From: Peristeroidobacter soli
GTDB lineage: Bacteria > Pseudomonadota > Gammaproteobacteria > Steroidobacterales > Steroidobacteraceae
Reading direction: 5' to 3'
Length of the DNA: 64,000 nt
Assembly (NCBI RefSeq): GCF_004138485.1
Contig: NZ_RYEV01000005.1
Coordinates: 1,040,827 to 1,104,826 of the forward strand
Position numbers and translations under genes: made by a program. Below the pieces are notes generated by a model. The model worked only from the letters and a program-made list of their open reading frames with translations, did no database searches and was not told the origin of the DNA. This document shows, in pieces, positions 7,809 through 9,924 of this stretch (positions within the stretch are counted from its first letter, which is position 1; each line of letters starts with the position of its first letter).

Positions 7809-8438
7809 TCACTTCCTGGCGGTGTGACGCCGTTCCAGTTCCTCCACGACCTGACCCAGAGAGAGCTGGCGGCTCTTCAACAGCAGGGTCAGATGGAACA
7901 GCAGGTCGGCAGCTTCGCCAACCAGCTTGTCGTCGCTCTGGGTCACCGCCGCGAGCGCGACTTCGACGCCTTCTTCGCCGACCTTCTGCGCCATGCGAGT
8001 CGGACCATCGGCCCACAGCCGCGCGGTGTAGCTGCCTTCGGGCCGCTCGCTGACCCGCTTCTCGATGACCGACTCGAGCCGGGACAGGAAGGCGAGGCGG
8101 GTCGCGGTCGTGCCGATCTCATCGCCAAAGCAGCTCGCCGTGCCATTGTGGCAGGTCGGGCCATCCGGCCTGGCCGTGATCAACAGCGTATCGTTGTCGC
8201 AGTCGATGGCGGCATCGACCAGCTGCAGGAAGTTGCTGGAGGTCTCGCCCTTGGTCCACAGCCGTTGCTTGCTGCGGCTGTAGAAGGTCACGCGTTTCTC
8301 GCCCAGCGTCTTGCGTAGCGCTTCGCGATTCATGTAGCCGAGCATGAGCACCTTGCCGGTGGTCGCGTCCTGCACGACCGCCGGCAGCAGGCCGTCGCCT
8401 TTGCTCCAGTCGAAGGATTCGATCTGGTCGAGCTTCAT
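7809..8438 (-). CDS. hisI: Phosphoribosyl-AMP cyclohydrolase / phosphoribosyl-ATP pyrophosphatase
   Basis: Bifunctional HisIE, 209 residues, steps 2 and 3 of histidine synthesis. The N-terminal cyclohydrolase domain (about 1-110) has [25 protein letters not shown] and the zinc-site residues in DCDNDT and [11 protein letters not shown]. The C-terminal pyrophosphohydrolase domain (about 115-209) has the acidic [11 protein letters not shown] segment and [13 protein letters not shown]. The ATG overlaps the hisF stop (ATGA), so it is translationally coupled as the last his gene. Confidence 0.96.
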
Positions 8439-9202
8439 GGCCGGACCTCGATATGAGTATCGCGCAGATAGGTCTTCAAATCGGGAATCGGCAGTGCGCC
8501 CGTATGAAACACACTCGCGGCCAATGCGCCATCGACGTGCGCCTCGTTGAACACGCTGGCGAAATGTTCCTTCGCGCCTGCGCCACCCGAGGCGATCAGC
8601 GGTACCCGACACAACGCTCGCACGGCGCTGAGCTGCGCGATGTCGTATCCCTTGCGCACGCCGTCGCTCGCCATGCAGTTGAGCACGATCTCGCCCGCGC
8701 CACGCTCCTGCACTTCGCGCACCCAATCCAACGTCTTGCGCGCGGTGTTACGAGTGCGTTCCGGGTCGCCGGTGAATTGATACACCTGATAGGCGCCGTC
8801 GACCGTCTGACTGTCGATACCCACCACCACGCACTGCGCGCCGAAACGCGCACTGAGCCGGCTGATCAATTCAGGATCGGCCAGGGCAGGAGAGTTGATC
8901 GACACCTTCTCCGCGCCTTCACCGAGCACTTCCTCCGCATCGGCGACGCTACGAATGCCGCCTGCCACACAGAAAGGAATATCCAGGATGCGAGCGATAC
9001 GACGGATCCAGCTGCGATCCACCGTGCGTCCATCGGGGCTCGCGGTGATGTCGTAGAACACCAGCTCATCGGCGCCTTCGTCACGATAGCGCTGCGCCAG
9101 TTCCAGGATGTCGCCCACGACCACGTGGTCGCGGAAGCGCACGCCTTTGACGACCTGACCGTCTCTTACATCGAGACAGGGGATGATGCGTTTGGCAAGA
9201 AT
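8435..9202 (-). CDS. hisF: Imidazole glycerol phosphate synthase cyclase subunit HisF, ATT start
   Basis: TIM-barrel cyclase subunit that pairs with HisH to make imidazole-glycerol phosphate and AICAR. The family N-terminus (M)[19 protein letters not shown] is fully present and carries the catalytic Asp in CLDV, but its first codon is ATT (9202-9200). Reading upstream in frame there is only GGA GCT GCG GCC before a TGA stop, and no ATG, GTG or TTG; the first such codon downstream would delete strand beta-1 and the catalytic Asp. GAGGAG sits 8 nt before the ATT. From ATT the protein is 255 residues, the usual length. It overlaps the hisA 3' end by 37 bp. Confidence 0.93.
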
Positions 9203-9924
9203 GGCCGCAGCTCCTCAGGTGAAATCTTGTTTTCCAGCAGCGCTTTGCCGCTGATCACGGCAGCAACGCCGCAGTCGCGCAGGGCGATCAGGTCACGCGC
9301 GGTGGCGACACCGCCGGACGCTTGCCACTGCAGCTCGGGAAATCTGCGCACCGCATCCGCGTACAGCTCGAAGTTCGGGCCGGTGAGCGCGCCGTCTCGG
9401 GCGACGTCGGTGCACAGTACGTGATTGATGCCGGAGCGCATGTAACGTTCGACCAGGCTCCACAGATTGACACTGCTGGTCTGTTGCCAGCCGTGCGTCG
9501 TGAGCATCGGCAGGCCTGAGTCATCCAGGCGCACGTCCAATGCCAGCACGATACGCGTCGGATCGACTTCCGACAGCCAGGAAATCACCACGTCGGGTGA
9601 ATTGATGGCGACACTGCCGACGACGGCGCGTTCGACGCCGGTCTCCAGCAGCGCCTTGACGCGCTCCAGCGAGCGCAGGCCGCCACCGACCTGCAGCTTG
9701 AGCGAGCGGTCGCCGGCGAACTTCACGATAGCCTCGCGGTTCGCCTGGGTACCGTCCTTCGCGCCGTCGAGATCGACGACATGAATGCGGCGCGCCCCGA
9801 AGGCGCGATAGCGGGCCAGGATTTCGGCCGGATCGTTCGAATACACCGTCTCGGCGGCGAAGTCGCCCTTGAACAGGCGCACGCACCGGCCTTCCTTCAG
9901 ATCGATGGCAGGAATCAGCTCCAT
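9166..9924 (-). CDS. hisA: HisA, ProFAR isomerase
   Basis: 1-(5-phosphoribosyl)-5-[(5-phosphoribosylamino)methylideneamino]imidazole-4-carboxamide isomerase, 252 residues, a half-barrel-duplicated TIM barrel. Visible motifs: [20 protein letters not shown] with the first catalytic Asp, [33 protein letters not shown] with the second catalytic Asp, and [11 protein letters not shown]. Start chosen at the ATG giving MELIPAID; it lies 7 bp after the hisH stop with GAAAGAAC upstream. Cytoplasmic, step 4 of the pathway. Confidence 0.96.
9211..9216 (-). promoter_or_regulatory. Ribosome-binding site that fixes the hisF ATT start
   Basis: GAGGAG on the minus strand, inside the hisA coding region, 8 nt upstream of ATT at 9202. 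A strong Shine-Dalgarno at ideal spacing supports initiation at this non-standard codon. Confidence 0.65.

Follow-up and report, generated by a model that had tools for sequence, protein, structure and literature searches.

Non-standard start codons are already known from infC and from Streptomyces sigR, as reported in the parts of PMC5472188 consulted, and from Borrelia pncA, as reported in the parts of PMC13398362 consulted. The consulted sections of PMC5472188 give AUU as the infC start in E. coli and AUC in Streptomyces, and describe a sigR start that is GTC in 32 of 34 species and GTT in 2, behind a conserved strong Shine-Dalgarno (SD) sequence. They also document sigR as a gene besides infC that is under IF3 control, and they name no overlapping reading frame as the cause of its start codon. 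The excerpts of PMC13398362 concern one species, in which pncA, a metabolic enzyme, was reported with an AUU start and a later-starting database entry lacks the catalytic Asp; no argument from an overlap is made in them. According to the consulted part of PMC5622118, a reconstruction that covered 36 groups of related prokaryotes counted 61,358 ancestral AUG starts, a single one of which turned into AUU.

The hisF gene described here is like sigR in that its non-standard start is conserved over many species and accompanied by a strong SD, and the GTT starts of sigR are a precedent for two hisF genomes with GTT (PMC5472188, parts consulted). It is unlike sigR in that sigR is a regulator with demonstrated IF3 control, whereas hisF encodes a biosynthetic enzyme for which such control is a hypothesis. 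Like pncA, hisF encodes a metabolic enzyme for which an AUU start can be proposed and a later start would lose the catalytic Asp; unlike pncA, as covered in those excerpts of PMC13398362, it involves many species and an argument from an overlapping gene.

In the window, which is the whole stretch of DNA analysed (64,000 nucleotides), hisF and hisA lie on the minus strand with the following features.

8435..9202, minus strand: hisF coding sequence, 255 codons plus TGA, translated from ATT
9200..9202, minus strand: hisF start codon ATT, at the Met1 position
9211..9216, minus strand: GAGGAG, the SD, with 8 nt between it and ATT
9215..9217, minus strand: in-frame TGA that bounds hisF upstream, four codons ahead of ATT
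9166..9924, minus strand: hisA coding sequence, 252 codons plus TAA (9168-9166), TIGR00007
9166..9202, minus strand: hisA/hisF overlap of 37 nt, the end of hisA and the start of hisF
9199..9201, minus strand: hisA codon TTC (Phe242), its first two bases being bases 2-3 of the hisF start
9202..9204, minus strand: hisA codon CCA (Pro241), its synonymous third base being base 1 of the hisF start

The minus strand reads TGA GGA GCT GCG GCC ATT CTT GCC AAA CGC ATC ATC CCC TGT CTC GAT, in which GAT is Asp11. The two genes have 37 nt in common because hisF begins inside hisA, whose TAA occupies 9168-9166, and the hisA frame is in a -1 relation to the hisF frame. Neither the strand nor this overlap was included in the preliminary description of the locus. 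Its account of the start region otherwise held: ATT stands at the HisF Met1 position (9202-9200), GAGGAG precedes it by 8 nt (9216-9211), only four codons, none of them a standard start, separate it from the upstream TGA, and the first downstream standard start is GTG at 9142-9140, codon 21, which lies beyond Asp11 and would therefore lose the catalytic Asp.

The product of hisF scored 334.2 bits against NCBIfam TIGR00735 (cut-off 294.55), could be aligned from its residue 1 or 2 onward with HisF chains of solved structure, and contained in its ATT-started frame the catalytic N-terminal Asp11. HisA scored 243.5 bits against TIGR00007 (cut-off 229). Only one HisF match at E <= 1e-60 was present in the 9.37-Mb genome. 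Replacement of hisF by a second HisF-like gene of the same genome (L003, contig C3, 422179-422868, minus strand; 36% identical) was considered and rejected: this gene scores as AglZ/HisF2 above the cut-off and adjoins HisH and a WbuX-like N-acetyl sugar amidotransferase gene just under the WbuX cut-off. Judged by these scores and neighbours, the set of AglZ/HisF2, HisH and the WbuX-like gene is one for sugar amidation rather than histidine synthesis.

The start codon was then compared across 247 genomes of the genus, family and order, among which 212 had a HisF match and 209 had a locus with a readable, complete 5' end. Left out of the 209 were 35 genomes without HisF at E <= 1e-60, the fragment G121, which lacks the N-terminus, and the contig-edge loci L219 and L295. 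All 5 genomes of family f10 were among these 35 of 247, and the other 30 were found elsewhere in the order. At the position of Met1, the 209 aligned loci had ATT in 160, ATA in 16, GTT in 2, ATG in 19 and GTG in 9; the remaining 3, of families f9 and f14, start elsewhere, with no start at the aligned codon and standard codons a few codons upstream. Non-standard starts (ATT, ATA, GTT) thus account for 178 of 209 readable loci, spread over 54 of 61 genera and 10 of the 15 families read, with a locus G+C of 31 to 76%. Outside the order, ATT, ATA or GTT was seen at the hisF start in 0 of 28 loci, 26 from a class search (32 matches, 26 with loci, all 26 read) and 2 from a nearby order. On 80 named genome contigs, hisF had ATT in 15 and ATA in 2. 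The hisF of L034, a Burkholderiales MAG, shows ACG at the position of Met1, and in the same frame TTG and ATG lie 7-8 codons upstream.

A base-call error, ATT for ATG, had been put forward as the main alternative, with relatives that have a standard start elsewhere as the observation that would count against an ATT start. Comparison with close relatives found ATT in all 14 genomes of the genus and thus no such relative within it, and together with the 160 ATT loci among the 209 of the order and the spread over genera and families this refutes the error, to which we give practically no probability.

The HisA codon before the aromatic residue, which provides base 1 of the hisF start as its third base, is four-fold degenerate in 155 of 178 non-standard genomes. 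Base 1 was A in 153 of these 155, against 13.6 expected from the other four-fold codons of the same hisA genes, and in 50 of 50 when one locus per genus was taken (4.5 expected). The two exceptions are the GTT genomes, in which this HisA codon is TCG (Ser) instead of the TCA seen in others. These are two genomes of genus g57 in family f6 (L331, which is G236, near 1837; L330 and L377, which are G212), and their nearest relative (G227) has ATT. The HisF frame of L331 is uninterrupted from end to end and carries an insert of about 29 residues after residue ~131; the sole standard start that precedes it in frame is GTG, at a distance of 71 codons. Since base 1 is synonymous in HisA and is nevertheless A, the triplet looks to have been selected as a start.

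Of the 178 non-standard genomes, 176 had an SD match of at least 4 bases, and in 135 of these its distance from the start was 8 nt; in the 15 genomes in which hisA ends before hisF, four bases matched in 7 and more in none. The HisA codon inside the SD was GAG in 169 of 178, and at the other Glu sites of these genes GAG was counted 1062 times and GAA 743 times. Comparison among genomes thus supports initiation of hisF at AUU behind a strong SD. A special mRNA fold at the start was considered and rejected, since an 86-nt stretch there folded no better than its shuffles (z 0.60; 147 of 200 shuffles folded as well or better).

It is very unlikely that ATT is not a start at all and that HisF instead arises through a -1 frameshift in hisA or from a standard start elsewhere, upstream or downstream. 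The -1 relation of the frames would suit such frameshifting, more than 10 open hisF-frame codons lie upstream in 127 of 178 genomes, a standard codon occurs somewhere upstream in the open frame in 84, and TTG precedes Asp11 in 4. However, an in-frame stop lies at most 5 codons upstream in 34 of 178, in one directly before ATT, and by the criterion for programmed frameshifting a slippery heptamer of the form XXXYYYZ was found within reach in the hisA frame in only 2 of 178. Equally few genomes, 2 of 178, have a standard codon among the 20 codons before the non-standard start, no standard start at all is present between the upstream in-frame stop and Asp11 in 90, and the first downstream standard start is past Asp11 in 174. 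Both the SD and the A at base 1 would be left unexplained by a frameshift or by another start.

Initiation at the non-standard triplet being the preferred reading, the residues of HisA suggest why the triplet takes the form it does. In all 178 non-standard genomes hisA crosses the hisF start, and the HisA codon opened by start bases 2-3 encodes Phe in 162 of 162 genomes with ATT or GTT and Tyr in 16 of 16 with ATA (in the HisA motif count among the 178, the motif was not found in 10 and one row had Lys at the counted place). ATC was the hisF start in 0 of the 178 non-standard loci of the order; it would encode Ser in HisA, so its absence fits a constraint on HisA. In the 15 genomes in which hisA ends before hisF (3 of them those of f9 and f14), non-standard starts numbered 0 of 15, and the equivalent place in HisA was aromatic in 14 (Trp 9, Phe 3, Tyr 2), the exception having Phe one residue later. 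In the AlphaFold model of HisA from the window (mean pLDDT 95.6), Phe242 lies just behind the last helix (236-239); pLDDT averages 85 at residues 241-250 and 47 at the last two.

The overlap alone is not sufficient for a non-standard start, because 16 of the 194 genomes with hisA across the hisF start use ATG or GTG. Among these 16, 9 have GTG with Cys-Trp in HisA and 2 (f16 g40) have ATG with Trp. In 3 ATG genomes of f2, hisA crosses the start only by its last codons, behind the aromatic residue; in L233, an overlap case of the ATG/GTG type, Cys is the last HisA residue; and L324 (f8) combines overlap and standard start with Cys in HisA and no aromatic residue there. The relatives on named contigs are like the genomes with non-standard starts in that hisA often crosses the hisF start: with an ATG or GTG start, it did so in 48 of the 58 in which the HisA motif was found (62 tested). 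They are unlike them in the start itself and in HisA, which mostly has Cys there, often followed by Trp or the end of HisA. The codon pattern as a whole, with Phe or Tyr in HisA, never ATC, and no non-standard start where hisA does not cover it, points to a coding conflict as the reason for persistence, and dual coding with hisA is probably the cause of the hisF start codon.

Trees were built on HisA and HisF with the overlap region excluded. The label standard or non-standard changed 11 times on the tree of 229 rows or 12 times on that of 95 rows, and branch support requires at least 7 of these changes. Examples of ATG rows placed among ATT rows are f1 g12 and L243, in both of which hisA has ceased to span the hisF start; another is L233, whose hisA ends one codon past that start. 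L324 does not follow the overlap pattern: an unstarred branch puts it next to ATT rows of f4. Five supported independent pairs were available, of which on average 3.9 went the expected way, 0 against and 1.1 without difference (p 0.125); with the pairing taken the other way round, 7 pairs gave 3.5 the expected way, 0 against and 3.5 without difference (p 0.125). The association of overlap and start codon is therefore consistent, with none of the pairs against it, and not statistically closed because the supported pairs are too few.

Comparison with infC in the same order bears on a different explanation, namely that AUU has been kept as a regulatory start that makes HisF synthesis sensitive to IF3, as for infC and Streptomyces sigR, and links histidine production to how the initiation machinery is faring. 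An AUU start is expected to be IF3-sensitive on general grounds. In 39 readable infC loci of the order, including L350 (42 fetched, from part of the genomes with an infC match, 57 of 59 and 14 of 14), the start was ATC in 29, ATA in 7 and ATT in 3. All 39 are non-standard, which implies that these genomes do employ a start that senses IF3, and in the same genomes infC resembles hisF in having a non-standard start behind a strong SD. The resemblance of hisF to sigR, a conserved non-standard start with strong SD for which IF3 control was demonstrated (PMC5472188, parts consulted), also speaks for regulation. However, infC regulates itself through IF3 and in this order mostly starts with ATC, and a regulatory start in hisF should likewise accept AUC; the frequencies of ATC, 0 of 178 in hisF and 29 of 39 in infC, differ with a Fisher p of 7e-28, relatedness being ignored. 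Moreover, no non-standard start was found in the 15 genomes without hisA cover of the start. We therefore regard a start kept for regulation as unlikely. Regulation may be a by-product of dual coding, which would be compatible with both the absence of ATC and the 15 non-overlap genomes. A fuller version, in which an AUU, AUA or GUU start forced by the overlap was kept across the order and turned into a regulator, so that HisF output and the flux of histidine and AICAR would rise as IF3 falls, is likewise improbable on our analysis; if it were true, the GUU cases would show that the SD and the coupling to hisA, not the codon, choose the site.

The reading that we prefer, and that we put at roughly three in four, is that hisF is initiated at AUU (AUA, or rarely GUU, in relatives) from a strong SD in the tail of hisA, with the codon held in place by dual coding. 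AUG at this place would give Cys, Trp or a stop in HisA, AUC would give Ser, AUU gives Phe and AUA gives Tyr. HisA would need an aromatic residue near its C-terminus, and selection would keep this residue and the A of the start codon and give up the G. Ribosomes finishing hisA, or recruited by GAGGAG, would then initiate at AUU with initiator tRNA. The penalty imposed at AUU by IF3 discrimination would be met by the SD and the coupling, so that the strong SD, probably together with coupling to hisA translation, would pay the cost of a non-AUG start. The comparison among genomes shows that the genes overlap, that the residue rule holds, that base 1 is under selection, that an SD is present and that starts are standard once the overlap has been lost; from this we infer that initiation takes place at AUU, that it has a cost which is compensated, and that HisA needs the aromatic residue.

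Among the matches listed in a search of open-licence papers, we found neither a non-standard hisF start nor an order-wide non-standard start in a biosynthetic gene for which an overlapping frame predicts the codons. AUU starts look like isolated oddities, but here non-standard starts occur in an everyday biosynthetic gene and in 10 of the 15 families read within a single order. The probable reason can be read from the sequence: what the neighbouring protein needs at one residue takes precedence over the start codon. Since a residue of HisA would outrank the hisF start, the hisA-hisF pair may serve as a natural experiment on the worth of AUG, and other gene overlaps would be a place to look for further non-standard starts. 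Gene-finding software that accepts ATG, GTG and TTG alone and moves downstream to the nearest of them would predict a HisF without Asp11 in those 174 of 178 genomes.

At the other end of the gene, the stop codon of hisF overlaps the start codon of the hisI/hisE-like gene that follows, in the sequence ATGA (8435-8438, minus strand).
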